A stretch of 60,981 nucleotides of DNA from an uncultured Clostridia bacterium (GTDB lineage Bacteria > Bacillota > Clostridia > Oscillospirales > Acutalibacteraceae). Below are positions 27,625-48,205 of this stretch, piece by piece. Under the pieces are notes generated by a model. The model saw only the letters and a program-made list of their open reading frames with translations, did no database searches and was not told where the DNA came from. The stretch covers positions 1-60,981 of the forward strand of contig CAMAZY010000016.1 of NCBI GenBank assembly GCA_945863885.1, given 5' to 3'. Made by a program: the position numbers and the translations under genes. Position 1 is the first letter of the stretch; the number at the start of each line of letters is the position of its first letter.

Positions 27625-27658
27625 AACTGTTTTTCTCGTGTTCTTACCGAAAACAAAA

Positions 27659-27710
27659 AGCCACCGGCAAGATAAGAAACGTTAAAGTTTCAAATCTTGA
27701 CCGGTGGCCT
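27659..27710 (-). terminator. Terminator, left end of cargo (2)
   Basis: A long stem, CCACCGG...CAAGAT paired with ATCTTG.CCGGTGG with one bulge, is followed on the minus strand by TTTTTG. It isolates the cargo transcripts from the integrase module. Confidence 0.8.
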
Positions 27711-27838
27711 CTCATGTAATATGTTTGGTATAACCAACCGTCGTATTTGAGATATATGACCTGAAGATGGATTTACGCAGCCTATTTCATCTCAACCATT
27801 TCGTCGTTATATCTTTAATTTTTAAATTAGGCAACCTG

Positions 27839-28042: not shown

Positions 28043-28083
28043 AATTATTACAGTTCTCCTTATCTGAATCTCAATGTGTGGTA

Positions 28084-30521: not shown

Positions 30522-30541
30522 TTCATTACCTCCGCAAAACA

Positions 30542-30580
30542 AATATGACCACAAGGCGTTTATCACCTTATGGTCATATT
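30542..30580. terminator. Hairpin between macro-domain and vWA genes
   Basis: A nested stem ATATGACCA...TGGTCATAT with inner AAGG/CCTT is followed on the minus strand by TGTTTTG. A second, weaker hairpin (GGTCGCTTG/CAAGTGACC) lies near 30605-30623. Together they probably end the dnd transcript partly or fully. Confidence 0.55.
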
Positions 30581-30652
30581 ATAAATTATTCAATATTAGT
30601 TTTGGTCGCTTGACAAGTGACCTTTAAATCATTTTTATAAATGGTAATTTGT

Positions 30653-31706: not shown

Positions 31707-32846
31707 TTAGTTACTGTCGGTCATTGATTTTACATAATCTACCAACTCAAAAAAATCAACTTTTGTGTTGTAGTTCCAAGAGATACGAATAGCTTCACTC
31801 ACTCGCACCTCATCGAGTCCCATTGATGTCAAAACATAACTTGGAGAGTGGCTCCCGGAATTGCAAGCCGAGCCATTAGAAAAGGCATAGTTTTCTTTCA
31901 TTGCAAGGAAGATACCTTCTGCATCAACACCGTGAAAACTCACATTTACAGTTGTCGGCAAACAATATTCTTGTGCCCCATTGAAAGAGTAGTTTAATCC
32001 TTTAATGCTCTCGATAAAATCAGCTTTTATCTCAGCACATTTCTTCATATGCTTTTCGCACTCATCATTACACAATTGAGCCGCTAACGCAAAACCTGCA
32101 ACTAAAGCGACGGGAGTAGTGCCGGGTCTGAATCCTCGTTCTTGTTGACCACCATACATCAATGGCTTTACGGGTGGGCGCTTATAGCTTTTATCCCTTT
32201 TAAGAACGATTGCTCCAACACCTTGAGGACCGCCCAATTTATGAGCAGTGACACTTAACATATCATACTTGGTATTTCTCAATTCATCGTTGAGTTTTCC
32301 AAAGCCTTGTGTAGCATCAATATGAAAATATGTAGGTGTCTTTTCAAGAGCTTCACCAACTTCTTTGATAGGTTGGATTATTCCGGTTTCACTATTAACG
32401 TGCATAAGAGAAACAAGCAAAGTTTTATCTGTCACCAACTCCAAGATTTGTTGGGGTTTGATTCTGCCTGTTTCATCGGGAGCAACAAAGTCCACAACAC
32501 AACCGTGCTTTTCAAGATGTTTCATAGCTTCAAGAACCGATTTGTGTTCGATGGTAGTAGTTATGAAATGATTCCTACCGGTTTCATTAGCATATTCAAG
32601 CAAACCAAGAATAGCCATATTATTGCTTTCGGTAGATCCACTTGTAAAAAGCACGTCAGTTGTATCAACGCTCAAGATCTCCGCGATTGTTTTTCGTGAT
32701 GCAGAAACAATCTCTTTTGCTTCCGTTCCAAAAATATGTGTTCTACTATCGGCATTGCCATAGTGAGAACGATATATCTCAATCATTCTTTCTAATACTC
32801 TTTCATCAACCGGTGATGAAGCATTAAAATCAAGATATACAGCCAT
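31707..32846 (-). CDS. dndA: Cysteine desulfurase DndA
   Basis: PLP enzyme that takes sulfur from cysteine and passes the persulfide to DndC for phosphorothioate synthesis. The 379-residue protein is of the NifS/IscS type: Ser/Thr PLP-phosphate contacts in FTSGSTESNN, HIDATQ (Asp-Gln pair), the PLP lysine K203 in SVTAHKLGGPQG, and the persulfide Cys328 in SNGSACNSGSH. Its ATG overlaps the dndE stop (TAATG) with AAGGAGG inside dndE. Many Dnd clusters lack dndA and borrow IscS, so this one is complete. IscS-like function in Fe-S assembly is possible in addition. Confidence 0.92.
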   Translation of the reverse strand: MAVYLDFNASSPVDERVLERMIEIYRSHYGNADSRTHIFGTEAKEIVSASRKTIAEILSVDTTDVLFTSGSTESNNMAILGLLEYANETGRNHFITTTIEHKSVLEAMKHLEKHGCVVDFVAPDETGRIKPQQILELVTDKTLLVSLMHVNSETGIIQPIKEVGEALEKTPTYFHIDATQGFGKLNDELRNTKYDMLSVTAHKLGGPQGVGAIVLKRDKSYKRPPVKPLMYGGQQERGFRPGTTPVALVAGFALAAQLCNDECEKHMKKCAEIKADFIESIKGLNYSFNGAQEYCLPTTVNVSFHGVDAEGIFLAMKENYAFSNGSACNSGSHSPSYVLTSMGLDEVRVSEAIRISWNYNTKVDFFELVDYVKSMTDSN

Positions 32847-33238
32847 TATTCAACTTCCTCCTTCGGAAGGGCAGATTTGAGTAAATCTGAGCAATTCTTC
32901 AGCACATCTCTTGTGCTGTAATGAGCGATGCCGCGATTAAGGTGTAATCTGAAATACTTTGCGAGAGTCTTTTCATCATCACCAAGACCATCGTTCAAGC
33001 ATCTTTGACGAATGATAGCTTCATAGATTTCGGAATATTCGCCTGCAAATGTTGACCAATCCATTTCAACATTACTATCAGATAACGGGTCAACACCGCC
33101 GGGCACCGTGGGTTCAGCAAGTGACCAACATAATGCCCAACGACAAAGAACATTCCAATTTTGAATCCCAGTTTTTGCTTTAATACGAATAAGCCTGTCT
33201 TTTTCAGGCTGTGAAAGTTTAAAATGCTTAACTATCAT
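32846..33238 (-). CDS. dndE: DNA phosphorothioation protein DndE
   Basis: Small DNA-binding member of the phosphorothioation complex, reported to bind nicked double-stranded DNA as a tetramer. The 130-residue protein shows the family signature at the N terminus: KLSQPEKDRLIRIKAKTGI then NWNVLCRWALCWSL. GGAGGTG precedes the ATG, which lies 3 bp after the dndD stop. Length fits the family (~110-130). The order dndB-C-D-E is the canonical one. Confidence 0.95.
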   Translation of the reverse strand: MIVKHFKLSQPEKDRLIRIKAKTGIQNWNVLCRWALCWSLAEPTVPGGVDPLSDSNVEMDWSTFAGEYSEIYEAIIRQRCLNDGLGDDEKTLAKYFRLHLNRGIAHYSTRDVLKNCSDLLKSALPKEEVE

Positions 33239-33241
33239 CTA

Positions 33242-35227
33242 TTACACCTCCCCAAAATATCCGTGTACGATTGAAGTGCATTGTTCTTCTTCGCGATAGT
33301 AGAGAGTGTAATAATCTGCAATATTATCACGAATAAGGTCAAGGTATCGTCCATAAACTTCTTCGTCCGTAGAAAGAACCACAACCTGAGAACTAGCTGC
33401 AGGTAAATACTTGGTAACAAAGTTTGCTCTATGTGACGAGTCAAGACGAGCCATAGGAGTATCAATAATAACGGGAGCTTTATATCCGGAAGTGAGTGCC
33501 AATGCCCAAACAATAGAGATTGCAAACATCTGTTGTTCGCCTGCAGAAAGCTGATGCTTAAGCAGTTCATTACCATCGAGATCAAGTATTGTTACATCTA
33601 GTGTTGTAGGATCTATATTTATGGCACTAACAAGGGAATCTTTTTGCACCAATTCTTTGAAACATTTGGTTGCAGTTACAGAAAGCTTTGCAACCTTTTC
33701 TTTTTGCAAACGAATCTTAAATTCAGTAAGAACCTCCATAGACATAGCCGCGTATTTAACAATACGAGCATTGTCATCGTTTGCATTTTCTTTTTCCGCA
33801 ATCTGTTTGATTAACTGTACTCGACGATTAACCAAAATCTCACGTTGTCTTTTAAGACTTTCTATGCTTTCCAATTGGCGTTGGTATTCATTATCAGCTA
33901 TCGCTTTTTCGCGTTCTACGGCCTTTAAAGCATCAAATAGTTGCATAGCCAATGTCTTCTCATCTGCAGCGCCAAGATGGGCATCCAAATTCATCCATTC
34001 GCTTTCTTGTGCTTCCACATGATTTACAAGCGAATCAATGCGCTGAGAAATTGTTCGGAAGACATCAGAAATAATCTTTTCGTACAACATCATACTTGTT
34101 GCTGACATATTTTGATTATTGGCTTCAGATGCATCTGAGGGAATATGACTAACAAGAATTTCATTAACGATACTCTTAACCAAATCCAATGAAGCTTTAT
34201 CGAGATTTGCAGAATTAAGTCTTTCCATTATCTGGCTATGCAAGTCAACAATAACTCTTTCAGAATATCTTTTTGCTTCACTTCTCTGCAAATCAATTTC
34301 CGTATTATAAGATTGAACAACTAAATCTCTGCACATAAACAAAGGAGTAGAAGCATCTATTGCAAGTTGCAGAATTTCCTCTTGTATGCTTTCAACTTCT
34401 GCAGAAATTTTCTGCATTTCGCTTTTGATAGCATCACGATTACGACTTAAGTCACCTCCTGAAGACCAAAACTCTTTTTCTTTTGCTTCAAGAGTTGCGG
34501 CAATAGTTTCGCAACGCAACTCTAATTCATTTGCATTCTTTGTTGCTTCAGCCAACTTGTTATCAATATCAGCAATTTGGCTTTCTACTTCTTGGTATCC
34601 GACATTTATTTCACTACGCTCAAAGGCTTGCAATGCGGATTTTTTTCTTCTAATAACTTCATCTGTATGTTCGATGGCTTTTTCAATAGCAGATACACCA
34701 ATAGCAGATTTAATCGAACTTTTTATCTGCTCAAATGATGTATCATCAGCTAATTGAGTAATTTTCTCATTATTAAAGAAGAAGAAGCGAGCAATACCAA
34801 ACGGGAGGATTTCTTCGATATAATAACTCCAGCTCTCTCCGAGATATTTATCTAAAACACCATTCTTTTCAACAGTTGTTTCTTGATTGAGTTTTTTACC
34901 AACCAACCACCAAGAACGTTTAATTCTCAATTCTGTACCATCGTCAAGACAAAGACTAACTGCAATATATGTGGTTTCTTCTTTTGCGTGTTTGTTAATA
35001 TGGTCAGCCAATAGTTTATCATAAGAACGAGCTTTTTCATTGATATATTTCAAAGCCTGTTTGCCATAAAGAGCCAACAAAATAGCATCGTGAAATGTGG
35101 TTTTACCACGACCATTCAAGCCACCGACAAGAATAATGTTACGGTCGCCGACTTTATTGGTAAGAGCCATTTCGTGAGTGCCCTTGTATATACCGTAATT
35201 ATGAAGTTCAACTTTTGTAAAATACAT
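33242..35227 (-). CDS. dndD: DNA phosphorothioation ATPase DndD
   Basis: SMC/Rad50-like ATPase of the phosphorothioation complex, thought to couple ATP hydrolysis to DNA structure changes or nicking. The 661-residue protein has an N-terminal Walker A (GLNGRGKTT, residues 36-44), a long coiled-coil middle (~200-520), an ABC signature LSAGEQQ followed by Walker B VIIDTPMARLD and a switch His/Thr region near the C terminus. GAGGTGAG precedes the start. It lies between dndC (11-bp gap) and dndE (3-bp gap). Confidence 0.95.
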   Translation of the reverse strand: MYFTKVELHNYGIYKGTHEMALTNKVGDRNIILVGGLNGRGKTTFHDAILLALYGKQALKYINEKARSYDKLLADHINKHAKEETTYIAVSLCLDDGTELRIKRSWWLVGKKLNQETTVEKNGVLDKYLGESWSYYIEEILPFGIARFFFFNNEKITQLADDTSFEQIKSSIKSAIGVSAIEKAIEHTDEVIRRKKSALQAFERSEINVGYQEVESQIADIDNKLAEATKNANELELRCETIAATLEAKEKEFWSSGGDLSRNRDAIKSEMQKISAEVESIQEEILQLAIDASTPLFMCRDLVVQSYNTEIDLQRSEAKRYSERVIVDLHSQIMERLNSANLDKASLDLVKSIVNEILVSHIPSDASEANNQNMSATSMMLYEKIISDVFRTISQRIDSLVNHVEAQESEWMNLDAHLGAADEKTLAMQLFDALKAVEREKAIADNEYQRQLESIESLKRQREILVNRRVQLIKQIAEKENANDDNARIVKYAAMSMEVLTEFKIRLQKEKVAKLSVTATKCFKELVQKDSLVSAINIDPTTLDVTILDLDGNELLKHQLSAGEQQMFAISIVWALALTSGYKAPVIIDTPMARLDSSHRANFVTKYLPAASSQVVVLSTDEEVYGRYLDLIRDNIADYYTLYYREEEQCTSIVHGYFGEV

Positions 35228-35238
35228 AGACTCTCACC

Positions 35239-36705
35239 TCATTCCACAAAATCATCAGCATCTATTTCTTCAAGAGGGCCGGCAATCCTCTTGGCGCGTT
35301 GCTCAGCAATTATTTCTGCCTCAGCTTCATCGCGATAAAATGCTTTTTTAATTTCTTTCTCAAAATTTACTATTACATTGTGCTTATTAGAGATTGCCGC
35401 TGCCTTTGCTTCAGTATCTAATAACGCTTGTTGCATTTCTGCTAATAACTGTTCATCGGGATACAGTTCAGCACAAACAGTTTTCAAAAGTTCTGCTTCT
35501 GCTGCACCAAAATACTTGTTTTTGCTTATGGTTCCGTCATCGTATTTTTTCCCCGTTACTTCTTCGTAAATACGAGGAAGTGAGTCATCAAATTCGTGCT
35601 TTTCATCAAGCCAAATTTGTCTGATAAACTTAAGTTCTTCCATAGTAATTAAAGGAATTTCCTTAATCTCTTCGGGACCGATTTCGTGAATAAGTTTTTC
35701 TACCTCAAGTAATCTGCGTAAGAAAAATTCTCTTGCTTCTTTGGTATAAGGACCGTGAACAAGACGATTATTGTGCCAAGTAAGTCTTCCATCTTTTCTG
35801 CGGAAGTCACGTCTATTCCTATCGGTTTCCCGATCTGCGGCGATTTCATTTCTGAACTCCAACATTGGGAGCATCCAAGCCTTTTCTTCATCGTTCTGAA
35901 TCATAGCCGCCATTGACTTATCTTCGCTAACCATAGTACAAACCCAACAACCAAAACGGCTATTACCGCAACTTGGAGTTGTACTATCAATTACCAACGG
36001 GCACTCACCATCGGCAGAAGCGCCACTATACATTGCCAAAAGATCTTTATTGCTATGACCCCAAGGATTGGGCATCTGAACTAGATACTGCCATACATTA
36101 TCATTTGACCAATTTTCAATAGGGGTAAAAACATATGAGTTAGGGAAAGAACCGTTAGGACTAAGATGAGCTCTGTATCTCTTTTTTTCATATCCTTCAA
36201 GGACAGCTTTACGAACCGTACTCTCTGCCTTTCTTGAGCCGAGAACCATAATTGCTTCACTTTCAGCATCAAGAATACTCTTGATAAATCTATTTGAAGC
36301 ATCAATCTTCATTCTGTCTGTACACCAACGGAAATCACGGCGAGGATAAGGGTATCCACGACCGATTAAGTTTACCCAATATGTATTTGTTATAGCCGGT
36401 GTTAATCTATGAGGGATGATTGGTAGATCATCTTCTTTAGCTTTGTCCTTCATCTTTTTCAAAGATTCAGAGGCCCAAATTGCAACAACGGGAGATTCAA
36501 CCAATGTATCGGTACTGATAACATGGACTGTCTTTTTAAGCTTGTCCTTTGGCAACTCTTGAAGTGCATACCATACCAACTGTGTTACGGCGGTTGAGTC
36601 TTTACCACCGCTATAACCAATTATCCAAGGAATCATATCTTCCAAATACAATTCCTTTATTGTTTCTATTACTTGACGAATATCGTCTTTAGTTAAATTA
36701 GCCAT
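35239..36705 (-). CDS. dndC: Phosphorothioation sulfurtransferase DndC
   Basis: PAPS-reductase-like ATP pyrophosphatase with an Fe-S cluster; activates the DNA phosphate and transfers sulfur from DndA. The 488-residue protein has the PP-loop SGGKDS (32-37) and four cysteines in the expected arrangement for an Fe-S site (C235, C246, C253, C256; CGNSRFGCWVC). ATG 36705 is chosen because GGATGG lies 8 nt upstream and it overlaps the dndB stop by 8 bp; upstream in-frame Mets exist. The C-terminal ~120 residues are helical and charged. Confidence 0.95.
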   Translation of the reverse strand: MANLTKDDIRQVIETIKELYLEDMIPWIIGYSGGKDSTAVTQLVWYALQELPKDKLKKTVHVISTDTLVESPVVAIWASESLKKMKDKAKEDDLPIIPHRLTPAITNTYWVNLIGRGYPYPRRDFRWCTDRMKIDASNRFIKSILDAESEAIMVLGSRKAESTVRKAVLEGYEKKRYRAHLSPNGSFPNSYVFTPIENWSNDNVWQYLVQMPNPWGHSNKDLLAMYSGASADGECPLVIDSTTPSCGNSRFGCWVCTMVSEDKSMAAMIQNDEEKAWMLPMLEFRNEIAADRETDRNRRDFRRKDGRLTWHNNRLVHGPYTKEAREFFLRRLLEVEKLIHEIGPEEIKEIPLITMEELKFIRQIWLDEKHEFDDSLPRIYEEVTGKKYDDGTISKNKYFGAAEAELLKTVCAELYPDEQLLAEMQQALLDTEAKAAAISNKHNVIVNFEKEIKKAFYRDEAEAEIIAEQRAKRIAGPLEEIDADDFVE

Positions 36706-37741
36706 TGCCATTACCATCCAATCCAAGTAAAATGCTCCTCATATAAGAAGACATCGCACGTTGCGTTGACCTATTCGCCGCAACCTTTCCATTTACAAAC
36801 ACAAGGTTTTCCCAAATGGGATTTGATTTTTTCCAATCAATACTTGCAAGAGCATTAAGACGCTCTTTCCAATCATTAGGATATGCTTTTATCAAAGCAT
36901 TGCCGGCAAATCCCAACGAAACCAAAGTAATACTCAGCGAGCAAATATAATCTCGTCTAACATCTGAGGATTTCATATCGCCACCTGCAACCATAGTCCA
37001 CTCTTTGATGTGATAAGACACCATCTTCCAAAACGATATTGCAAGCTCAGTCTTTTCGGTAATATTCAAGTCCAAACCATTTAGAAGTTCATCGGTTGCA
37101 GTACAAATCGCACTTAATGTAAACAACGCCTTAGAACGATTTGAAATCGTTGTTTTTTCCTTCTCTACCAAGCCATTAAATGACGGGACTTTTTCAATAA
37201 CAGACTTAGCCACTATAGCAGATTCTTCACGTGAATTATAAAGAATGTTAATTGACTTTGTTGGCTTGATTGCATAACGGTTAAGGTCAGAAAACATCTG
37301 TTGTGACCTTGCCAAGCCTTCATCCTTATAAAATACGACTGAGATGTGTTCATTCTTCAGTTCGGGATTCATTTTTATAGCTTCGGCAATAGCGGCTCTA
37401 CGATGTTGGCCGTCGTTAATAAGAAAACGAGAAGTCATAGAAATACTAACCGTTCCAATTTGAGGTGTGGCTTCAGAAATCGAATTAAACTCAATTTCGC
37501 CATCAACAGAAACAGTTAGCGAAGAAAAAACATAGTTATCAAGATTAGAAAGTATGTAATCTCTAATTTCGGGAATTCTCGATTTATTTAATATTCTTTG
37601 CGCTCTGATTTCGGGGGGCATTTCTTCATCGGCAAATTGAAACAGTTTCGATATTACATCCAACGGAACCATTGAAGTATAATACTCACGTTTTGCTTGA
37701 ATGCCTTTGACCGCCGGAAAAACAAAAGATGCACTACTCAT
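36698..37741 (-). CDS. dndB: DndB, regulator of DNA phosphorothioation
   Basis: DGQHR-domain protein that represses dnd transcription in characterised systems and limits modification density. The 347-residue product carries DGQHRR (110-115) within a ParB/Srx-like fold, plus FSDLNRYAIKPTKS, another family hallmark. It is the first gene of the dnd operon with a consensus promoter and an inverted repeat upstream. It overlaps dndC by 8 bp. In Dpd clusters the related DpdB is part of the modification machinery, but here the neighbours are dndCDE. Confidence 0.93.
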   Translation of the reverse strand: MSSASFVFPAVKGIQAKREYYTSMVPLDVISKLFQFADEEMPPEIRAQRILNKSRIPEIRDYILSNLDNYVFSSLTVSVDGEIEFNSISEATPQIGTVSISMTSRFLINDGQHRRAAIAEAIKMNPELKNEHISVVFYKDEGLARSQQMFSDLNRYAIKPTKSINILYNSREESAIVAKSVIEKVPSFNGLVEKEKTTISNRSKALFTLSAICTATDELLNGLDLNITEKTELAISFWKMVSYHIKEWTMVAGGDMKSSDVRRDYICSLSITLVSLGFAGNALIKAYPNDWKERLNALASIDWKKSNPIWENLVFVNGKVAANRSTQRAMSSYMRSILLGLDGNGNG

Positions 37742-37783
37742 ATTTCGTCCTTTCCTTCTCTTATAAATACTTGAACAAGATAT

Positions 37784-37812
37784 ATTATACTACTAAAAGG
37801 AAGTCTTGTAAA
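37784..37812 (-). promoter_or_regulatory. dnd operon promoter
   Basis: On the minus strand TTTACA (37807-37812), a 17-bp spacer and TATAAT (37784-37789) lie 43 bp before dndB. Confidence 0.85.
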
Positions 37813-37828
37813 GAGTTTTTGGAATTCT

Positions 37829-37855
37829 TTTGTTTGTTTCTTAAAGACAAACAAA
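37829..37855. promoter_or_regulatory. Inverted repeat upstream of the dnd promoter
   Basis: TTTGTTTGTTTC (37829-37840) and AAGACAAACAAA (37844-37855) form a near-perfect inverted repeat (10 of 12 positions). The right arm motif AGACAAACAA is repeated directly 11 bp further on. It is a candidate operator for DndB or the XRE/WYL proteins. Confidence 0.5.
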
Positions 37856-37874
37856 GACAAACAATATTTAAGAC

Positions 37875-37906
37875 AAAAAATATGCACCCATAGGGTGGGT
37901 GCATAT
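37875..37906 (-). terminator. Terminator of the long Dpd-like operon
   Basis: An 11-bp stem ATATGCACCCA/TGGGTGCATAT is followed on the minus strand by TTTTTTG, 6 bp after the last gene's stop codon and before the dnd promoter. Confidence 0.9.
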
Positions 37907-37911
37907 TTCGA

Positions 37912-38583
37912 TTATAACGTGAATCTAAGTCTTAACTTTGAAAGCAATTGCTTTTCTTTCAGCCACTTCATTACATCATCGTTCAAATCGGCAACGGTTG
38001 CTTGTTGTGCCGAAACCTTTTTAAGGAAGGCTTCGATTGCGGGATTTAATGAGAAAGAATCAGTAATATCTTTAGCTTCTTTCACATCAGCAACAAGCTT
38101 GTTAATTGCTCCAATGGATAGTGCGCCTTCGACCGTTCTTGTGATATTATCTCCAAGTTCTCTTGCCTTTCGGGGGTCTTGGGTCAATCCACTAATCATT
38201 GATAGATAACCTTTGGTTCCCTCTGCATACTTTGTGGCGGCGTCCTTCCAAACAAGTTTAAGTTGGCTTGCGTAGGTTTCACCCTTTGTCTGCAATACTT
38301 TAACAGCATCAAGTGTCAAATTGCCTTCGGCAATCGCAGAACCGCAATCACCAACCGAAGTAAGCAAGTCATCACGAACAGATTTTGGCAATACAGATTT
38401 CTCAACTATACCTTTTGCTTTCATTTCTGCCGCACAATCGAGTATGCTTTTTATAGCATCATGTTGTTGAGCTAACTGAAGCAATGCTTTGGTATAAAGT
38501 TCTGCGTTTTGTTTGTTCTCAAGAGTTGCACGACGAGTCTTAATGGCTGTTGTGCTATTTTTAATTGTTTCAGTTAGTAGCAT
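37912..38583 (-). CDS. DpdI-like helical protein
   Basis: A 223-residue, largely alpha-helical protein with no catalytic motif that I recognise (Lys/Ala/Leu-rich; LTETIKNSTTAIKTRRATLENKQ at the start, VMKWLKEKQLLSKLRLRFTL at the end). ATG 38583 has GGAGG 9 nt upstream and overlaps the ATPase gene by 14 bp. It is the last gene of the operon. Its position directly after the large ATPase, its size and its helical nature match DpdI of 7-deazaguanine restriction clusters. This rests on synteny and memory, so it is tentative. It probably forms a subunit with the ATPase. Confidence 0.5.
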   Translation of the reverse strand: MLLTETIKNSTTAIKTRRATLENKQNAELYTKALLQLAQQHDAIKSILDCAAEMKAKGIVEKSVLPKSVRDDLLTSVGDCGSAIAEGNLTLDAVKVLQTKGETYASQLKLVWKDAATKYAEGTKGYLSMISGLTQDPRKARELGDNITRTVEGALSIGAINKLVADVKEAKDITDSFSLNPAIEAFLKKVSAQQATVADLNDDVMKWLKEKQLLSKLRLRFTL

Positions 38584-41500
38584 CGTCATACACCTCCGCA
38601 TTTTTCAAAAGACCATGAAGTTCTTTCATTGATTCTTTGGCAGCATCAGATAATTCAGCCATATTACTAACACCGCTAATGTTAGCAATAGCATTTGTTG
38701 CTTTTGTGCCTTCGGTTTCCGCTTTTTGAGCTATTACTTGCAAATCACGTAAGAAGTCTGATACTTTGTTCAGCGAATTGTCAGAGTAAATTTTCAACTG
38801 CATTACAGCAGACGCATTTTTAGCAGAAATCAATTTTTCTGTATGCTCCAAAATCTCGGTTGCCACTTCGACTGGTGCTTTTTCATATTTAGTTCTCAAG
38901 TCATTTGCGCCTAAAATTCCATTTTGAGCAAATACCGAGAAAAGGTCTTGTATTGCCGACAAGGTAGAAATAAGGTTGTCCTTATTTATATCTCCAACAT
39001 AACCCTCTACTTTTTTCAAAACTTCATCTACTTGTGTAATTTCTGCAGCCATCGCCTTTTTAACGCTTGTGTAAAGAGATTTTAACAATGTCGCAGGATT
39101 ATAAAGTAAATGTTTTGCTGGAATAGCTTCGGGCAATGCCTTTTCAATGTCCCACTCAGATTCCATCAAATGTTCAACGGCAGAAATCAGTTCATTAGTT
39201 CTGTAGCACGATTTGATAGTTCCTTCCGCCGAGAAATGAATGGCACCCATTGTTGTTGCGGCAGAACGCTTTAGCATATTGAAAGCATTAAAGAAATCCG
39301 CTTCTTTATTCTGAGTAAACTGAATCAAGTCGTTCCATTCGCGAGTTTCACGGTTGATTTTATCGTTCCTCTTGATGTCCTTCATCAAAGATTCAAGAAT
39401 CGTGACGGGAGAACTCATATCAATCTTATGACCAAGGATACAAGCCTTAAGATATTGAAGTGCAATGCACCATTCCAATACGGGAAGTTGATTATCTATC
39501 TTGCTTGCTATAACCTTTTCAATTACTTCATCTTTTCTTCGTTCAAGCCAAGTAATCAAGCGCTGTTGATAATAAGCTGCTCCTTCAAAATCCCAACCTT
39601 TTGCATATCGAAGTTCATTGAGCGCAAACAAAGCATCTCTACTTTCTGCAGAACGGTCCATAAATACAATAGCTTTTTCTGCATTGGCAGGTTGGCTTTG
39701 GTCATCAATATAATATGCCGCCAAGTCTGCTAAACGTTCATCGGCAATATAAGCAGGAACGCCTATATCTTGCCAATTCACAGCGCCACATTGTTTCGCA
39801 TCACCTCTAAACAATGTTCTCAACCAATTTCGGTAATCCGCGTCATATTTCAATGATTCGTTTTTAACGAACCACGCGGTAATATCCTCTTTATATTTAA
39901 GATAATCCTTAGTTGCACCATCGACGGGTTTGGGCTTGTTATCGGGTTCTTTATCCACAGGCTTTTGTTCGGGTTTCTTTTCGGGTACTTTAGCACCGGA
40001 GCCGATACCGGCAAACTCAGATAAAGCAATATCGTTCAAAAATTCTTTGCTCAATCCACCGATAGTTTCAACACCATCGTCAGCTTTAGCGTAGGTAGCT
40101 GAACCATCACCCCAAATAGCCAAAACAGATTTAAGGCGATTTCTTTCTGCTACAGAAAAACTCTCCAATCTGTCGATGGTAGAACTGTGCGGGTCGTTAG
40201 ACATTTGAATATTGGCTTGATTCAATGGGAAATGCCAATCATCACCATATTCTTTTCCATCAAAGAATTCTTTTAACTGAGCTCGAATAACATCCTTTAA
40301 GAATCTACGCGGACTTTTTACCGGAAGATGCTCATACAAGGACATAATCGCATTTTTGTTAAAAGGATAAAGCGTAACCTCTTTGCCCTCTATGGTGGTA
40401 GTTTCCCATTTGCAGGGCGGTGCAAATTTACTTATCGGCAAGTCCTCTAATACTGCGCCATTCTTGTTCCAATCTCTGAGTGTATCGGGGTCACAATAAA
40501 TCGCATTGAGGTATCTTGCAGACATTTGAACCAAAAATTCTTCTGTACTGAAGGAATTATAGGTAACACTGATCTGATGTGTAACTCTATCAGTAAAGTT
40601 ATCTCTAAATTGGTCATAGTAGTCATTTGTAATACCAATAATAGCAGTAACTCTACATAAGTCGGCATAATCTCCACCATGCTCAGTCGAAAGAACTGTA
40701 ATCAGCTCTGAATCAATTCCGGTGAATCCAGTAAAGTCTTCAATGAACAATGTGAGATTCTTGCCTTGCCTTTTTAAGTCTTTTCTTAATTCAACAAAGA
40801 CGCTTTTTGTGCTTTCGCTTGATATATCAGCACATCTCTGAACAACATCACGTGTAAACTTGTTAAGATAGTTTACGAGCTTTGCAACTTCGTCATCATC
40901 ACCAAGCAATGTATCAGCACAATCTTGTGCACGTGGGTCACCTTGACGATGCACCTCTTTAAGAAGTTTTCTTACATTAAAATCATCAGCGGAAAAAATA
41001 GTGTTGTCCTTTAACACTTGGTCGCTTGGTGCAGTGATAACCGTGTAGCATCTTGATATAGCGCCACCTTCACGCATCATATGCTCTTTAACTCGGCTAT
41101 CTGACAAAAAACTTGCAATATTTAAATGAAATGCACGCTTATACACTTCTTCAGACTCATCGTTTTCAACTGCAGCAGCATATGAATGCAATATTTCAAT
41201 CTTAAAAGCAGATTCGCTTTTGGCATCGGATGATTCTACGAATTTCTTTAATTTTTCTGCAACATCGTTATCTTTTATAACTTTTTGTTCCAATAATTGT
41301 GAAAACACACCTCGAACAGAGTTGTTCAAACGTCTTAAGAAAATCAACTGTTCATTTGCTGGATTATAGACCGTAGCTGGACTATGTTCCAACTTGGCTT
41401 TCAAGTATCTGATAAGGTGCGATTTACCCGTACCGTTATCACCACGAACAATAATCAGTCTATGCTCATTATCCGGGTTGTAAACAAGATTATCAAACAC

Positions 41501-41668
41501 CTCTGCTTCACTCATTACTTTAGGAGTAGCCGTAGTTTTACCACCACGATATACTTCAAGTTGAGCAAATGGCATATGTGTAGCCATAAAATACGCATCT
41601 TCTGTAGCCATATCATCGGTTTTAATGGCATATCGTTCCATTGCAGAAGAATATTGTTTCCAACTCAT
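38570..41668 (-). CDS. dpdH: DpdH-like large P-loop ATPase
   Basis: A 1,032-residue protein with an N-terminal AAA/STAND-like ATPase: Walker A GDNGTGKSH (residues 76-84) and a Walker B-like acidic stretch LTLFIEDFTGFTG (about 313-325). A Pro/Lys-rich linker (about 575-600) leads to a long helical C-terminal half. GGAGG precedes the start. It sits between the 262-aa and 223-aa genes in the E-F-G-H-I order of dpd clusters, where DpdH is the large ATPase needed for restriction. The alternative is a generic defence ATPase related to BREX or DndFGH components. Substrate unknown; DNA is inferred. Confidence 0.6.
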   Translation of the reverse strand: MSWKQYSSAMERYAIKTDDMATEDAYFMATHMPFAQLEVYRGGKTTATPKVMSEAEVFDNLVYNPDNEHRLIIVRGDNGTGKSHLIRYLKAKLEHSPATVYNPANEQLIFLRRLNNSVRGVFSQLLEQKVIKDNDVAEKLKKFVESSDAKSESAFKIEILHSYAAAVENDESEEVYKRAFHLNIASFLSDSRVKEHMMREGGAISRCYTVITAPSDQVLKDNTIFSADDFNVRKLLKEVHRQGDPRAQDCADTLLGDDDEVAKLVNYLNKFTRDVVQRCADISSESTKSVFVELRKDLKRQGKNLTLFIEDFTGFTGIDSELITVLSTEHGGDYADLCRVTAIIGITNDYYDQFRDNFTDRVTHQISVTYNSFSTEEFLVQMSARYLNAIYCDPDTLRDWNKNGAVLEDLPISKFAPPCKWETTTIEGKEVTLYPFNKNAIMSLYEHLPVKSPRRFLKDVIRAQLKEFFDGKEYGDDWHFPLNQANIQMSNDPHSSTIDRLESFSVAERNRLKSVLAIWGDGSATYAKADDGVETIGGLSKEFLNDIALSEFAGIGSGAKVPEKKPEQKPVDKEPDNKPKPVDGATKDYLKYKEDITAWFVKNESLKYDADYRNWLRTLFRGDAKQCGAVNWQDIGVPAYIADERLADLAAYYIDDQSQPANAEKAIVFMDRSAESRDALFALNELRYAKGWDFEGAAYYQQRLITWLERRKDEVIEKVIASKIDNQLPVLEWCIALQYLKACILGHKIDMSSPVTILESLMKDIKRNDKINRETREWNDLIQFTQNKEADFFNAFNMLKRSAATTMGAIHFSAEGTIKSCYRTNELISAVEHLMESEWDIEKALPEAIPAKHLLYNPATLLKSLYTSVKKAMAAEITQVDEVLKKVEGYVGDINKDNLISTLSAIQDLFSVFAQNGILGANDLRTKYEKAPVEVATEILEHTEKLISAKNASAVMQLKIYSDNSLNKVSDFLRDLQVIAQKAETEGTKATNAIANISGVSNMAELSDAAKESMKELHGLLKNAEVYDDATN

Positions 41669-41671
41669 AGT

Positions 41672-42460
41672 TTACGCCTCCTTTACTGTAATGTGTGTAA
41701 AGTCGTTTATAGGCTCACCATCAACGAAGTAAAGCATAATTTTTTCACCGTCTTGCCAAGTCGCAAGCTCAATGATATGTAACTCATGTAAAGTTCTTAA
41801 TGCAGCAGATAAAGCAAGAGGAAGCTTACCAGTCATATCTACTTCGGGAAGTTTTCCACTTAGCCAAGCGATAAAGTCGGTCGCACGGATTGCTTCGTTG
41901 CACTTGAACTTTTTAGCAAATTCCGTTTTAATAACGTCCTCAAGACGCAATTTCATATTAGGAATAATCATTGTTCCACTTAAATATCCCAACCCTAAAA
42001 ATGCTGCCCAAAAACGCCAACCCAATACAGCGTTTTCGTTAAGAGCTTTTAATTCTGCTTGTTCTTGCGCGCAGGTTTTCGCCATACTTTCCCAATTAGT
42101 CAATGAAAATAATCTTTCATTTTGAGCGATAATCCATCGGGTAAACAAATAGAACGTCGTGTCTTTCTTTTGAAACACTCTTGCACTTACATATCTTCTA
42201 AATTCCGTCGGCGAAGAAATAATGCTTTCATCAACCGCAAGAGTCAATAATCCATTTTGGTTTTTTATTAAGTCCAATTCTGAAAGTGCGACATTGACAG
42301 ACTCAGTAATGGGTTGAATATCAACATCTGCGTTTAATAAAGACATTGCATCGCGCAAGTCCGTTTCAGAAATAGGTTTTTGTGCCACTAAGCGACATAC
42401 TGCCAACACTCTTTCGGGGGTTGGTGCCATTCGCATAAAATCGGGATTTGATTTAAACAT
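41672..42460 (-). CDS. DpdG-like protein
   Basis: A 262-residue soluble protein beginning MFKSNPDFMRMAPTPERVLAVCRLV. The N-terminal third looks like a winged-helix fold (PISETDLRDAMSLL...LDLIKNQNGLLTLA) and the C-terminal part is helical. No catalytic motif is visible. AAGGAGG precedes the start; gaps to both neighbours are 3-11 bp, so it is translated with them. It lies between the RecQ-like helicase and the large ATPase, as DpdG does. Likely a DNA-binding or adaptor subunit; this is inferred from synteny. Confidence 0.5.
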   Translation of the reverse strand: MFKSNPDFMRMAPTPERVLAVCRLVAQKPISETDLRDAMSLLNADVDIQPITESVNVALSELDLIKNQNGLLTLAVDESIISSPTEFRRYVSARVFQKKDTTFYLFTRWIIAQNERLFSLTNWESMAKTCAQEQAELKALNENAVLGWRFWAAFLGLGYLSGTMIIPNMKLRLEDVIKTEFAKKFKCNEAIRATDFIAWLSGKLPEVDMTGKLPLALSAALRTLHELHIIELATWQDGEKIMLYFVDGEPINDFTHITVKEA

Positions 42461-42471
42461 ACGAACCCTCC

Positions 42472-44988
42472 TTAAAGTCTTTCAACATCAATCATATTGC
42501 AGTCTAAACATTCACTCAAAGGCTTGCCAACATTAGTGACCACAATATTGTCATTACAGTACAGAACTCGATAATAACCAAACTCTGCAAGCTTCTCTAA
42601 ACTCTTGTATAATGTAATGTTTTCGATAGCATCGCCATCAAATACACACATAACACCTTTTGCAAACAAATAAGGGCAATTTGCAACCGCAAAATAGAAT
42701 TCATCGTAATTAAGAACCAATCCGTTCACGTTAAGTTTATCAGCAAATTTTTGCGGTACTATTACGGTGCCTATTCCATTATTGGTCACTTTCTCTACAA
42801 TCTCTTGAACCTCTTTTAAAGTGCAAGAGCCGTTACTACTCCTTTTTACGACAAGCTGTTCAAAGGTGCCCATATATCGTTCTAATCTCTTGCTAATATT
42901 TCCTATAGGAAGTTGAATGTTTGGCTTATTACGAAGTTTGTATTTTTCATCCAAAGTGATTCTTCCATCAATGTCAGTAGGACATCCATTACACACCTCA
43001 TTTGCAAGTGGAAAAAGGTGCTTAAAAGTTTTGCCCCAACATTTTGATTTTGGCGAAGAAACTAACTTACTTATTATGTAATAGCCTTCCATTTGTGACT
43101 TGTATTCTTCAGCACGTGGCTCTGTTAGAGCTTTAGTCAGTTCATTTTCGTCACCAAGAATATCGGGTTCTAACAGTTTGGCTGTTATACTGTAATACTT
43201 TTGAATCGGAGTTGCATCTTGATTGATAATATAACTCGCATCAACCAACTCAATAAAACCAATTCTATGCAAAAAGAGCAAGAGGTTTATGTTCCAAGAA
43301 ACGTTCTGGTTTCCTGCAAATTCTGCTTCTTCATCGCTCATTGTTGAAGGTGTTGTAGAGGTGTTAATAACACACTCATCACCATCAATAAGGGTTGTAG
43401 GATTGTGCAACATACTATTCCATCGGATAACGGCACGTTCAACAGTAAGAACTCTCTTATTAACCAAACCGAGTGCTCTGCGCACGTCTCCTTCGCTGTC
43501 ATATCTACTTTGATAAGGCAACAGCAGACTTAACGAAGGCAATCTATCACGACCGCCACGACCCACTTCTTGATAAAATCTACTCAAGTTTTCAGGACAA
43601 CAAGCGTGAATTACGGTTCTAACGTCGGGCTTATCAACACCAATACCAAAAGCAGAAGTCGCAACAACTACATCAAATTCGTGGTTTTTCCACCCCGTCA
43701 AAACCTTATCGCGTTCCGATTCTTTAGTTTCTCCCGTAAAGGTAGGAATATTCAAATAACCTGCTTTGCGAAGTTGTTTTTGCAAATCCTTTGCTTCTCT
43801 TGGCTCCAAGACATAAACAACCATCGGTTTAGGGAGTAACTTAATAGCTTCAATCGTTTTTTCATCTTGTTCTTCATGTGATTTAGTAGAATGAAAATAA
43901 AATCGCGGTTCTTGTCGAAGTGCGTCGCATCGAACCTGTGCATTACAACCTTCTTTACCAAACAATGTAAACAATGTATCAACTACATCATCAGACAAGG
44001 TTGCAGATAACAAGTATGTTCTCAAATAATCTTTCGATTCCGTTCTCCATTTACGAAGAACAATAGAAAAGATTTGGAAATCGGGTCTAAAGAATACACC
44101 CCAATCCGGAACAATATGTGCTTCATCGACAACAACATTACATAGATACTTGTCTTCTGCGGCTTTGTTCAATATTTTATGCAATACAGGATTTTTTAAT
44201 ATTGCTTCGGGTGATGTAAATAATACTTTTGCTTTTCTACCATTAAGTGCTTTGATTATCTCTGAACGTTCTTTTTCGCTTTGTTCGCCACGATAACAAA
44301 ATATACCGTCGTGGTTAATTAAGTTGTGTTTTGCCGCTTGATATTGGTCAAGTGCCAAAGCAACAGTAGGCACAATTACAATAGTCAAGCCTTTCGATAT
44401 GCTAGAGAGGATCTGTGTTACAAGGCTCTTACCACCACCGGTAGGTTGAGAAATCAAGAGAGTATGCCCTTGAGGTAAATTTATCGCAGAGTGAACAGCG
44501 ATTTTTTGCTCAAAACTTTTATATGTCTTGAATTTAGTGTGAGTAGAAAGAATCAAGTCCCCTGCAGAACCTTCCTCAAGCGCTATAAATTCTCCGTGCT
44601 TGAGCGCATAAACATCCTCGATGTATTTCTTTGGTTCAAGCCATTCGGGAATCTGATGCAAACACGAAACTTGGTTACCGCTTTCACAAACGAGATTGAA
44701 TTCCGCACCGCAGTCTTTTACTACGCTATAGAGCTTATCGGTTAATTTGATTCTTCCAAGATAAAGAACCACATCGCGAATCTTTAAGCAAATATCTTTT
44801 TTGGATGCTTCATCACATTTATATTGAATGATTCTTTTAATGAATCCAATTACACACCTTGCACGTGCTGCTTCTTGCATTGCATTTAAGCTCGCAGGGT
44901 TATCCAAGAGTTTTTCCAATTCGCTTATAGCACTTTTGGAATTCATTGAACCAACAATATATTGATTTAATACTTCTTTACTATCCAT
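42472..44988 (-). CDS. dpdF: DpdF-like RecQ-family helicase
   Basis: An 838-residue superfamily 2 DNA helicase. The first ~165 residues are a non-helicase extension. Then Walker A QPTGGGKS (181-188), DEAH (288-291) in VVDEAHIVPDWGVFFRPDF as in RecQ, LLSATL (motif III), ATSAFGIGVDKPDVRTVIH (motif V) and QEVGRGGRDR (motif VI). A later Cys pair in VCNGCP may bind zinc. It overlaps the SNF2-type gene by 8 bp. RecQ-like helicase directly after an SNF2 helicase is the DpdE-DpdF arrangement; it would unwind or translocate on invading DNA. Confidence 0.75.
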   Translation of the reverse strand: MDSKEVLNQYIVGSMNSKSAISELEKLLDNPASLNAMQEAARARCVIGFIKRIIQYKCDEASKKDICLKIRDVVLYLGRIKLTDKLYSVVKDCGAEFNLVCESGNQVSCLHQIPEWLEPKKYIEDVYALKHGEFIALEEGSAGDLILSTHTKFKTYKSFEQKIAVHSAINLPQGHTLLISQPTGGGKSLVTQILSSISKGLTIVIVPTVALALDQYQAAKHNLINHDGIFCYRGEQSEKERSEIIKALNGRKAKVLFTSPEAILKNPVLHKILNKAAEDKYLCNVVVDEAHIVPDWGVFFRPDFQIFSIVLRKWRTESKDYLRTYLLSATLSDDVVDTLFTLFGKEGCNAQVRCDALRQEPRFYFHSTKSHEEQDEKTIEAIKLLPKPMVVYVLEPREAKDLQKQLRKAGYLNIPTFTGETKESERDKVLTGWKNHEFDVVVATSAFGIGVDKPDVRTVIHACCPENLSRFYQEVGRGGRDRLPSLSLLLPYQSRYDSEGDVRRALGLVNKRVLTVERAVIRWNSMLHNPTTLIDGDECVINTSTTPSTMSDEEAEFAGNQNVSWNINLLLFLHRIGFIELVDASYIINQDATPIQKYYSITAKLLEPDILGDENELTKALTEPRAEEYKSQMEGYYIISKLVSSPKSKCWGKTFKHLFPLANEVCNGCPTDIDGRITLDEKYKLRNKPNIQLPIGNISKRLERYMGTFEQLVVKRSSNGSCTLKEVQEIVEKVTNNGIGTVIVPQKFADKLNVNGLVLNYDEFYFAVANCPYLFAKGVMCVFDGDAIENITLYKSLEKLAEFGYYRVLYCNDNIVVTNVGKPLSECLDCNMIDVERL

Positions 44989-47900
44989 TCTTTCTCACCC
45001 TTAAGAAACAAACCGCATCTAAAACGGGTTTTGCGTTCTTTAATGCTCTCAATGTAACATCAAATACGTGCTTTCTCTTTTCCACTTCTGATAAATCACG
45101 TTCAAAATAAATACATTCGGCTCTGCAACCGTCTAAAACACGTTGCATTTCTGCTTCTGCAGCTTCTAAATTAGAACGCTTTTCAAGGCGCAAACAAGCT
45201 CTTTCATATGCTTTAGCCGAACATCTTTCAATTAAAGGTTCCCAAGTGGTCGCAGGGGTTGCCGCAATAAAACGTTCCAACGGAGAATAACCCATTTTTC
45301 CGCTACTGCGCTTACCCAAGTGAATTGCATTACGGCTTGGCATATTGAAAAGCAGTTTTACAACTTCTTTTTCGGGGATTTCTGTACTTGCTTTGTTCAA
45401 AGGTACTGTCACAACGATTTGTCGCAAAGGTAAATACATTCTATATTGAGCCAATGCTTGCAGAGTAATACCTTCTTCTAAAAGTTCATCAAGTGTAGGT
45501 TCAACATTGTAGATATATACAAGACCCGCATAATTGAAATCGCCCATTGTTTCAATACCGGTACATCTACCTCTATTGCAACCAACGGCATTAGAAATTA
45601 TCGCATCATAAACCGCATCACCGGGAGCAAAGAACAAGACATCTTCTCGAATAGCCGCAGTTTTACGATTAAATGAGCCCAATATTTTTCCTTCACGAAG
45701 CATAATAGAAGAATTTGTGTAACGGTCCCAATCCGGCGGAATAAAGAGAGATTGCTTTGCGGCATTTACGCTAAACGCACTTTCTCTAAACTCAATCAAA
45801 CCGGTTTTTGTAGGTTTTTCGGGGTGCAAGCCTGCTTGTCCTCCCCAACCCATCATAGCTGTTGCGAACAAATTATCGTCCTCAGAATTGTACAATTCAA
45901 GAACATTATCAATGCCTTGTGATAACGGTCGATAAAGTGTTGCTCCAAGGTCAAAATCTTGCTCATCTTCAACGCTTTCTCTCATTTCGTCTGCTTGGTC
46001 TAAAATATCATCAAAAGCATTCAACAAGCCCGTATAATAGTCATCTAACAAAGCATCTACAATAAGCTCATTTAATTCACCCGTGATTATTTCAAGACCA
46101 CTCAAAGACTGCTCGAACAGTTTCATTCCGTCTTTCCAAACTTTAAACAACTGTTCTTCTATTGTTCCTTTCGCGTATAAGACTACGGATTTTACATCCA
46201 TTTCGGGGTCACGACCAAGTCTATCTAAACGACCAATGCGTTGTTCCAAAGCATTTGCATTCCAAGGTAAATCAAGATGAATTACTTGCTCTGCATTTTG
46301 GAAGTTACGACCTTCACCACCGGTTTCATCGCACACGATTACACGGCAAGTAGGGTCGTTTTGGAAATCATAAACGCTATCTTCAAGGTCAGCTCTTGAC
46401 ATATGCTTTCCAAACGGAACGGCACGAATACCCATAGGCTCATAACGCGAATTAAATAACTTTAAGAAAGCATTTAAAGTAGCATTGTGTGCTGTGAAAA
46501 CCACAAATTTGCATTGTTCATTATCAAGAATATCTGTTTCTTGGTCAATATAGTTCATCGTTACCATTAAACGTCCCTTGATTAAGTCGGGGTCCTCATC
46601 CAAAGCAACATCTACAAGTCTGTGCTCGTTGTCGGCTTGCAATCTCCAAGCCTTTGCACTATCTAATAATATATCATCAGTAATATTGAGTTTATCTAAC
46701 ATTTCTTCAAAAGCCCAAGCACTACTAAATAACGAAGATAGTAATGGTATAGCAACTTCTTTTACATAATCCTCATCATCTTCTCCATTGTTGGAAAGGT
46801 ATGACAATGTGTTTTGAATAGCACCAATTTCATTATAGTTTTCATTAAGAGAAAGAGGTGTATAAGGAAGTTCACAAAGGGTTCGTTGCGCCATCTTTTC
46901 AGAAATAAGTTGACGTCGATTTCTAATAACTTTGCGCTCCACTCTATAATTCTCGCAGATATACGCCAAAGCCTGCTTAACCAAAGCTAAACCTTTATCT
47001 TCGGAGTTAATGTCAATTTCTCCGACAATTTTTGTAAGCGCAGAATCCTCAAGAATTTCAGCGATATTATTCAGTTCATCAACAACGATTTCTGCAAACT
47101 CATCATACTTTCTAAGACGATTAAGTTGTTGATTCACTTTCTTTTGAATATTCTTCTGCTTTTTTACAAGCCATGCAAACTTTTCGGCAGACATATTCTC
47201 ATACTGTTCGGGATTTAACAATGCCAAAAGTCTTCTGTATTCTTCATTTCTATCTTGGATAGGTGTTGCAGAAAGCAGAAGGATATGTTCGACCTTGCGG
47301 CTAACGGATTGAATGTTCTTATACCACGCATCATTACCTAAAAGTCTGTGTGTTTCATCAACAATAGCAAGATCCCAATCGGCACCCAATATCATTTGAG
47401 ATTTCGCCAAGTCTTCCATAGGAAGTAAGCAAATTCTATCTTTAGGAGAAGAAATAGCAGCTTCAAGGCTGTATTTGTAATGTAACTCATTTTTCCATTG
47501 GCTTATCAATGCACTTGGCACTACAATCAAAACACGAAGTTTTTTGTTTTCACTTGCCAAAATGCTAAGTATTGAGCAGGCTTCAACAGTCTTACCCAAG
47601 CCAACTTCATCAGCCAACATATAGCGAACCGGGGTGGTTTCAAAGCAACGTGCAACCGTACTAATTTGGTGCGGTAATAAATATGCTCTGCAACCTGCAA
47701 GGACCTTAAATCCGTATGTAGCGTTGTTTACCAAATGGAGATTTCTGCTTACCTTCAAATGATTTATAAACCACGTGGGATGTTGGAATTCATATGCCAA
47801 CAGTTGCTTATCGGGCGCATAATTCATCTGAGAGTAATCTATTTTTAGGTCTGTTTCACAAGCCTTAACACATCTTCCGTTAGGTAGTTTCACCCAATAC

Positions 47901-48205
47901 CAATATGGTTCATCTTCAGAGCAGGGTTCAGCAGTTCGAGAAATAATTGTTCCACGGCCCCAAACACCTTCAACTATTCCACCGGGACTTGCTTCACATC
48001 TTGTTACTGAAGCAGCAGGAAAAACATTATGATCAAATAACTCACTATAATACTGTCCACTTCCTAATAAGTCGTGCATTGCAACCCTTATTCCATCTGC
48101 GACCTCATTGTACTCGACCACTTGAGCAAGTACAAAAAAGCGTGGATAGTCCCTATCGCCGGGTTCCACAACTATAGGGCATCTATAATAGCATCCTAAT
48201 AACAT
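44981..48205 (-). CDS. dpdE: DpdE-like SNF2-family helicase/translocase
   Basis: A 1,074-residue SNF2/RapA-type DNA translocase. An N-terminal ~170-residue domain of unknown type precedes Walker A DEVGLGKT (199-206). It also has DETH (Walker B), LLSATPIQDR (motif III), ETGGEGRNFQNAEQVIHLDLPWN (motif V) and QRIGRLDRLGR (motif VI), then a ~380-residue C-terminal domain similar in position to that of RapA. AGGAGA precedes the ATG. Its size, motifs and neighbouring RecQ-like gene match DpdE; DISARM DrmD and BREX-type SNF2 proteins are alternatives. It probably scans DNA for the modification. Confidence 0.75.
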   Translation of the reverse strand: MLLGCYYRCPIVVEPGDRDYPRFFVLAQVVEYNEVADGIRVAMHDLLGSGQYYSELFDHNVFPAASVTRCEASPGGIVEGVWGRGTIISRTAEPCSEDEPYWYWVKLPNGRCVKACETDLKIDYSQMNYAPDKQLLAYEFQHPTWFINHLKVSRNLHLVNNATYGFKVLAGCRAYLLPHQISTVARCFETTPVRYMLADEVGLGKTVEACSILSILASENKKLRVLIVVPSALISQWKNELHYKYSLEAAISSPKDRICLLPMEDLAKSQMILGADWDLAIVDETHRLLGNDAWYKNIQSVSRKVEHILLLSATPIQDRNEEYRRLLALLNPEQYENMSAEKFAWLVKKQKNIQKKVNQQLNRLRKYDEFAEIVVDELNNIAEILEDSALTKIVGEIDINSEDKGLALVKQALAYICENYRVERKVIRNRRQLISEKMAQRTLCELPYTPLSLNENYNEIGAIQNTLSYLSNNGEDDEDYVKEVAIPLLSSLFSSAWAFEEMLDKLNITDDILLDSAKAWRLQADNEHRLVDVALDEDPDLIKGRLMVTMNYIDQETDILDNEQCKFVVFTAHNATLNAFLKLFNSRYEPMGIRAVPFGKHMSRADLEDSVYDFQNDPTCRVIVCDETGGEGRNFQNAEQVIHLDLPWNANALEQRIGRLDRLGRDPEMDVKSVVLYAKGTIEEQLFKVWKDGMKLFEQSLSGLEIITGELNELIVDALLDDYYTGLLNAFDDILDQADEMRESVEDEQDFDLGATLYRPLSQGIDNVLELYNSEDDNLFATAMMGWGGQAGLHPEKPTKTGLIEFRESAFSVNAAKQSLFIPPDWDRYTNSSIMLREGKILGSFNRKTAAIREDVLFFAPGDAVYDAIISNAVGCNRGRCTGIETMGDFNYAGLVYIYNVEPTLDELLEEGITLQALAQYRMYLPLRQIVVTVPLNKASTEIPEKEVVKLLFNMPSRNAIHLGKRSSGKMGYSPLERFIAATPATTWEPLIERCSAKAYERACLRLEKRSNLEAAEAEMQRVLDGCRAECIYFERDLSEVEKRKHVFDVTLRALKNAKPVLDAVCFLRVRKNG

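Follow-up and report, generated by a model that had tools for sequence, protein, structure and literature searches.

A conserved locus that pairs Dnd phosphorothioation genes with a Dpd-type restriction module

The DNA analyzed here (60,981 nucleotides, positions 1 to 60,981 of contig CAMAZY010000016.1 from an uncultured Clostridia bacterium; this whole stretch is called the window) carries a hybrid defence locus in which Dnd genes for DNA phosphorothioation stand beside restriction genes of the Dpd (7-deazaguanine) type. All genes of the locus are on the minus strand and run from a NERD-UvrD helicase through a 1393-residue protein to DpdE-F-G-H-I and then DndB-C-D-E-A. The hybrid Dnd-Dpd locus is a conserved arrangement. 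We read it, at a probability of roughly three in four, as a phosphorothioation-based restriction-modification system with a Dpd-derived restriction arm, and comparison of related loci suggests that the Dnd genes and the Dpd-derived module are probably coupled in function. One attack machine may serve two unrelated chemical marks.

The five proteins encoded upstream of dndBCDEA are, as judged by profile comparison, DpdE-F-G-H-I in the canonical order, and we regard the gene identities of the locus as nearly certain. DpdE is an SNF2-family helicase of 1074 residues (44981-48205), DpdF a RecQ-like helicase of 838 residues (42472-44988), DpdG a protein of 262 residues (41672-42460) and DpdH a P-loop ATPase of 1032 residues (38570-41668) with the conserved motif G[ST]GKSHLIR. 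Their top NCBIfam matches were the models for DpdE (NF041062, E 1e-107, 361 bits; curated cut-off 500), DpdF (NF041063, E 2e-157, 526 bits; cut-off 550), DpdG (NF041064, E 2e-7, 30.8 bits; cut-off 80) and DpdH (NF041065, E 1e-85, 289 bits; cut-off 450). PADLOC gave the same four best families. The fifth protein (37912-38601) had no best family in PADLOC, and the DpdI model (NF041066, E 0.12) was the fourth of its four insignificant NCBIfam matches.

Profile-profile comparison settled the weak DpdG and DpdI assignments. Profiles from two sets of nine window-type loci were aligned by hhalign with profiles from 13 canonical Dpd loci, and the probabilities were 100% for DpdE, DpdF and DpdH, 99.7-99.9% for DpdG (E 1e-37 for the latter value) and 99.2-99.4% for DpdI (E 6e-20 to 1e-21); five mismatched control pairs gave 0.0-0.3%. 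DpdI also has a shared C-terminal pattern, FL..AT..L...V..WL. The canonical loci of Nostoc sp. C057 (p057_I) and Paenibacillus sp. 37 (pART37) have the same DpdE-F-G-H-I order with homology over nearly the full length, and the plasmid records list genes of the same size and order, although not every one is named as Dpd. That the locus instead has no Dpd module and holds a DISARM, BREX or generic helicase set is hardly credible. DpdE does match the DrmD, RapA and BrxHI models and DpdF matches RecQ, but the Dpd models score higher and cover most of each protein, the five genes stand in Dpd order and the profile matches reach 99-100%; DISARM, BREX, RecQ or DrmD identities of DpdE and DpdF were rejected on their lower scores. 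No protein of the window module had a Drm model as its best family (a DISARM methylase was not sought genome-wide), and none had PbeA, the HKD nuclease with an SF2 helicase, which DpdF matches at E 6e-13 through its helicase part. The Dpd assignment made in the preliminary description of the window is borne out by profile search, and the hidden Markov model search, in which best matches to DndFGH, DrmD/DrmA or BREX in place of Dpd were looked for, returned none.

The dnd genes make up the dndB-C-D-E-A set previously described as complete by motif. DndB (36698-37741; TIGR03233, 416 bits, cut-off 328), the sulfurtransferase DndC (35239-36726; TIGR03183, 624 bits, cut-off 290), the ATPase DndD (33242-35227; TIGR03185, 430 bits, cut-off 246) and DndE (32846-33238; TIGR03184, 117 bits, cut-off 72) all exceed the NCBIfam cut-offs. 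DndC carries SGGKDS and CWVC, and DndD has a P-loop. The cysteine desulfurase DndA (31707-32846) reaches 418 bits against a cut-off of 480 (TIGR03235), and its active-site segments HKLGGP and NGSACNSGS are present; PADLOC ranked SspA (400 bits) ahead of DndA (384). PADLOC also placed the PbeC model first for DndD (719 bits vs 486 for DndD). PbeC has a CxC motif according to PMC10853773, and a motif scan found neither CxC nor CxxC in the window DndD, which also exceeds the NCBIfam cut-off for DndD, so we take it to be probably of the DndD type and disfavour the PbeC identity despite these scores. All ten genes lie where the preliminary description had put them; the fifth Dpd protein measures 229 residues by its first ATG rather than the 223 given there, and the two upstream genes of the module (48253-55720) had been overlooked.

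The window's own genome (2.6 Mb in 67 contigs, 98% complete) contains one ordinary Tgt (PF01702) and one DndC. Profile searches of this genome found no DpdA (NF041059) and no DndH (TIGR03237). The earlier statement that the window has no TGT-like DpdA thus extends to the whole genome, and no dpdA turned up elsewhere in it; the earlier description had held that such a gene would speak against a hybrid. The missing DndF-G-H partner is likewise supported by the absence of DndH.

To place the locus among relatives, genome contigs were scanned with a single peptide pattern from the DpdH alignment, which gave 121 relatives, and the best 80 were kept (L- and G-numbers below are the survey's labels for loci and genomes). 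A set of 29 loci, the window and 28 others, was defined by the same protein of about 900 residues upstream of DpdE. The scan for dnd-dpd adjacency proposed earlier thus found that the pairing recurs, with 28 further loci that hold the block. DpdE, DpdF and DpdG are on the same strand as DpdH in all 29, and DpdI was seen in 27; the other two (L016, L029) are cut within dpdH by a contig end. DndC lies within the fetched stretch in 20/28 set loci and in 0/56 other DpdH loci (Fisher p 3e-13, relatedness ignored), a count that excludes the contig-cut loci L024, L033, L036 and L038 from both sides. Canonical Dpd partners occur in 38 of the 56, and L089, also among them, gave a weak DndB match of 60 bits. 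In the DNA fetched for the 29 loci and for the four contig-cut ones, nothing matched DpdA, DpdJ, DpdK, DpdD or Que above 40 bits, with DpdJ, DpdK and DpdD queries from Paenibacillus and Nostoc and with Que and DpdA queries from alphaproteobacteria, which could miss distant homologues.

Dnd and the module share one contig in 24 of the 29 genomes (the window, the 20 fetched loci, L022, L034 and L016), and a 25th (L029) has Dnd on a contig that starts with dpdI. In two more (L011, L014) Dnd is near the end of its contig, where a break in the assembly between the two units would put it. The carriers belong to the Bacillota, apart from two actinobacterial metagenome-assembled genomes (MAGs), so placed by their record titles. 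Cultured examples are Faecalicoccus acidiformans DSM 26963 and Brevibacillus dissolubilis CHY01. Two pairs of loci (L025/L046 and L032/L050) have near-identical DpdH and DndC in genomes titled as different NCBI families, which suggests recent transfer of the whole locus.

The pairing did not appear in Dnd-bearing stretches compared as controls. A DpdE-H block was absent near DndC in six plasmid stretches and in seven same-phylum stretches (four genomes, DndC or DndC-like), where the nearest match was DpdF at 81 bits (L177). Eight viral-contig loci also lacked the block; L168 scored 81 bits for DpdF and L172 scored 39 bits for DpdE. Scans of viral contigs with DpdF and DpdH found no relatives, a phage collection contained one distant DpdH, and a search with one DpdH protein across 398 genomes of the same phylum returned the window's own genome only.

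The two marks are partitioned between genomes. The search covered 40 complete sets of contigs from genomes picked for their DpdH locus (the set of 29, window included, five canonical Bacillota and six others). DndC was over the cut-off in 28/29 set genomes, and intact DpdA was found in 0/29. In the five Bacillota with canonical Dpd (L021, L023, L028, L031, L037) the result is reversed, with DpdA over the cut-off in 5/5 and DndC in 0/5. The six others (L024, L033, L036, L038, L045, L051) show neither over the cut-off. DndH was absent from 33/34 genomes searched for it, including 28/29 of the set.

The DpdH proteins of the set have a common origin. In a quick tree of 87 proteins, a single clade of 32 (SH-aLRT 99) unites the 29 set rows with L024, L033 and L036; because these three fall within it, the label takes 4 changes on this tree, and there were long-branch warnings elsewhere. 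In a careful tree of 41 of these rows, the 29 phosphorothioate-side rows (26 set rows plus L024, L033 and L036, without the near-copies L020, L032 and L046) group in a single clade (100/99) adjacent to the DpdA-bearing Bacillota. Thus, the pairing may have arisen once. The dnd genes lie in the same direction as the block, convergent to it or upstream of it, with at least 4 changes of placement over the 21 rows for which it was scored; this count does not include L016 (upstream) or L029 (convergent). In L022 and L034 the DndC belongs to a different dnd lineage, and monophyly of all hybrid DndC was rejected (approximately unbiased test, p 6e-47, 36 rows, after removal of two near-copies and of five rows that were fragmentary or long). 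The remaining 20 hybrid DndC do not hold together either (p 0.014), since G124 branches within them. This genome shares their dnd lineage and combines DndBCDEA with DndFGH, and its two fetched stretches contain no Dpd genes. DpdH and DndC divergence are correlated (r 0.957, 18 genomes, 0/2000 permutations; host phylogeny not removed). In the lineage with the other dnd set (L109:5188-8327 and L022:13732-14928), GmrSD-type restriction and PAPS-reductase-like proteins stand beside dnd, and an HNH protein follows dpdI.

Several observations weigh against a coupled system. The best 80 of 121 relatives from one peptide pattern are a sample tilted to the window's kin, and the single DpdH clade speaks against many independent pairing events. 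None of the five Dpd proteins of the window reaches its curated NCBIfam cut-off. One set genome, a MAG (L012), has no DndC, and in another (L015) Dnd lies inside a different contig. The contig-cut L024, L033, L036 and L038 have no DndC over the cut-off; in L033 a DndB stands where the contig ends. A broken DpdA occurs in G424 (L043; C9:1951-2526, a 191-residue frame with a stop), possibly a relic of a former Dpd locus. In Brevibacillus dissolubilis (L019, with L135), the Dpd-type module and DndFGH flank one dndBCDEA set, so the Dpd-type module there is no plain substitute.

Alternatively, the two units may be independent defence systems carried by the same mobile element. Dnd would then make phosphorothioate for its own reasons, and the Dpd-derived block would sense a signal other than the mark, e.g., replication or recombination intermediates. 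The layout of the window agrees with some separation. Gaps within each unit range from -32 to 47 bases, and dpdI and dndB are 170 bases apart (junction 37742-37911), with a terminator-like 14-bp stem (37909-37877) and a promoter-like 11/12 site (37812-37784; one such site found vs 1.3 expected). These are consensus matches, and such scans are only suggestive, but restriction and modification genes appear to be transcribed as separate units. The varying dnd orientation relative to the block, the window's integrase beside a tRNA gene, the second restriction module in Brevibacillus, and the members with Dnd on another contig or without Dnd all favour independence too. We nevertheless consider it unlikely. 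DndC is present in 28/29 genomes and intact DpdA in none, other DpdH loci lack DndC in their fetched stretches, and the linkage outlasted both a switch of dnd lineage and no fewer than 4 rearrangements. Taken with G124 and Brevibacillus, that lineage change indicates that restriction and modification modules were exchanged while phosphorothioation stayed paired with the DpdE-I clade.

Two genes upstream of dpdE also belong to the module. The first encodes a protein of 1093 residues (52439-55720) with a NERD nuclease domain (Pfam, E 2e-8) and a UvrD/RecB-type helicase (UvrD, E 1e-39); Walker A, DEFQD and the NERD residues D...VELK can be read in its sequence. The second encodes the module-specific protein of 1393 residues (48253-52434), made of a conserved core of about 950 residues and a C-terminal PIN domain (PIN_4, E 1e-15, residues 1153-1283). 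A NERD-UvrD protein (about 1040-1140 residues) and then the core protein precede dpdE in 13/13 fetched upstream stretches; in L114 the NERD-UvrD gene is broken into two frames. Most relatives have a core frame of 813-990 residues, and the shorter homologues lack the PIN domain. The core proteins of the window and L113 are about 1400 residues long and align end to end, including the PIN region. In Eubacterium plexicaudatum ASF492 (L044, L114), both dndD and NERD-UvrD are broken into two frames and the core protein is short, which may reflect decay or misassembly of this copy.

The core protein has a counterpart in canonical Dpd. It matches a 947-residue protein that neighbours a UvrD helicase in the dpd locus of Paenibacillus sp. 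37 (hhalign 97.1%, E 5e-11), an arrangement like that of the window module. A Deinococcus plasmid that carries dpd and Que genes encodes a relative of this Paenibacillus protein, and the annotation there calls it a NERD protein. DpdD, DpdJ, the DUF2325 protein, the P-loop protein and the 763- and 2100-residue proteins of dpd loci were rejected as relatives of the core (0.1-0.2%). The Paenibacillus protein matches AddB (85%, E 6e-6), and the core matches AddB directly with 12.5% (E 0.002) around HGVHQFTP. The core also has a C-terminal CxxCx5C pattern, which recalls the iron-sulfur staple of AddB. It is plausible but weakly supported that the pair is an AddAB-like helicase-nuclease inherited from Dpd ancestors. 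We rejected the core as a proven AddB nuclease, given the weak direct match and an aligned C-terminus in which no PD-(D/E)XK catalytic residues were seen. No PDB sequence matched the core significantly (best E 0.05). As no PD-(D/E)XK active site was seen in the core, the NERD domain (D...VELK) is taken as the likeliest nuclease.

In the mechanism that we propose, DndA-C-D-E would put phosphorothioate on host DNA, and DndB, where present, would act as a regulator. A separate unit of NERD-UvrD, the core protein of about 900 residues and DpdE-F-G-H-I would scan DNA by means of its ATPase and helicases, would sense the phosphorothioate and spare DNA protected by it, and would destroy DNA without the host mark. 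Cutting would most likely fall to the NERD domain and, in the window, perhaps also to the PIN domain. Co-inheritance suggests that the same effectors may read both backbone sulfur and a modified base. The preliminary description had offered the kinship of DndB and DpdB as a possible reason for the swap. The kinship is supported, as the window DndB (238 bits) and Caulobacter DpdB (197 bits) both match a common DGQHR domain, but its role as the reason is weakened by seven loci (L013, L016, L022, L026, L034, L035, L040) in which no DndB match lies beside dndC.

The module could instead be triggered by phosphorothioate, attacking DNA that bears it or killing the cell when it is disturbed, in an abortive or type IV-like manner. 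The presence of NERD and PIN domains would suit such a role, and the available passages of PMC10853773, which catalogue nucleases around Dnd, propose suicide effectors. A Dnd writer in the same genome would, however, make plain attack on phosphorothioate DNA self-destructive, and PMC12707154, in the parts available, describes dpd as a restriction-modification cluster whose presumptive restriction genes lower transformation. We judge this alternative very unlikely, and phosphorothioate is better read as protecting against the module.

The divergence profile along DpdE-I revealed no clear mark reader. The largest drops are three: identity falls from 51% among canonical proteins to 26% between hybrid and canonical proteins in DpdG 1-60, from 45% to 25% in DpdH 101-200 and from 51% to 31% in DpdE 701-800; in the DpdG and DpdH regions two hybrid subclades differ from each other equally. 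The open-access passages on Dpd that we consulted name no mark reader. A comparison of canonical and hybrid DpdE-I should narrow down where it lies, and the question of how a restriction machine switches the chemistry of the mark it respects becomes testable.

The locus differs from known systems in its combination of parts. Unlike canonical Dpd, the window genome has no DpdA, and Dnd genes, NERD-UvrD and the protein of about 900 residues stand beside the block, where DpdJ, DpdK, DpdD and deazaguanine genes were not found. With DndABCDE-DndFGH it shares DndBCDE (all over cut-offs), and in Brevibacillus even both restriction modules beside one dnd set; the window's restriction arm belongs to other families, and DndH is absent in 28/29. 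Ssp and PbeABCD resemble it as alternative partners of a phosphorothioate writer, but the best families of the window's E-H proteins are Dpd. There is precedent for mixing Dpd parts. In the passages seen, PMC12458937 describes BRIGADE and other Dpd hybrids, and BRIGADE, unlike the window locus, keeps the deazaguanine cluster together with YprA helicases; PMC12839542 describes a BREX-HerA-Dpd composite with a TGT in a subset of loci. The survey of dpd islands in PMC11888242 is, in its available part, anchored on dpdAB, and a term search of the main text of PMC10853773 found neither 'dpd' nor 'deazaguanine'. The titles, abstract openings and passages of open-access PMC literature that we covered contain no description of Dnd paired with DpdE-I. 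Solitary dndBCDE clusters are mentioned in the accessible part of PMC8569181, and the module is a concrete candidate partner for them.

A third pairing of the Dpd block is found in two Selenomonadaceae MAGs (L051:3260-21632 and L045:445-9888), where DpdH is paired with DISARM DrmA and DrmB. L051 has DpdE-F-G-H, with DpdE in two frames, and a NERD helicase, and the contig of L045 starts at dpdH. Upstream of L051 (L187) are a C5-cytosine methylase and a MutH-type protein. We tentatively suggest, at somewhat less than even odds, that DpdE-I is a restriction chassis tied to no particular mark, whose self-signal is supplied by interchangeable modification modules, namely 7-deazaguanine in canonical Dpd, phosphorothioate in the present clade (from two dnd lineages) and perhaps a DISARM-type mark in these two loci.

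The surroundings of the locus look like those of cargo on an integrative element. The window contains a tyrosine integrase adjoining tRNA-Ser(CGA), a sigma-r4 protein and a LexA-like S24 peptidase, with a CHAP-domain protein at its right end (regions 24882-28698 and 59389-60912). A search of the window for a repeat of the tRNA 3' end, which could mark the other attachment site, found none. Upstream of the module lies a WYL-domain protein (55753-56733, minus strand; Pfam WYL/WCX), a possible regulator, with a homologue close to the module in 1/13 upstream stretches (L108). Directly downstream of dndA (29478-31690), there are a macro-domain protein and a weakly VWA-like protein.

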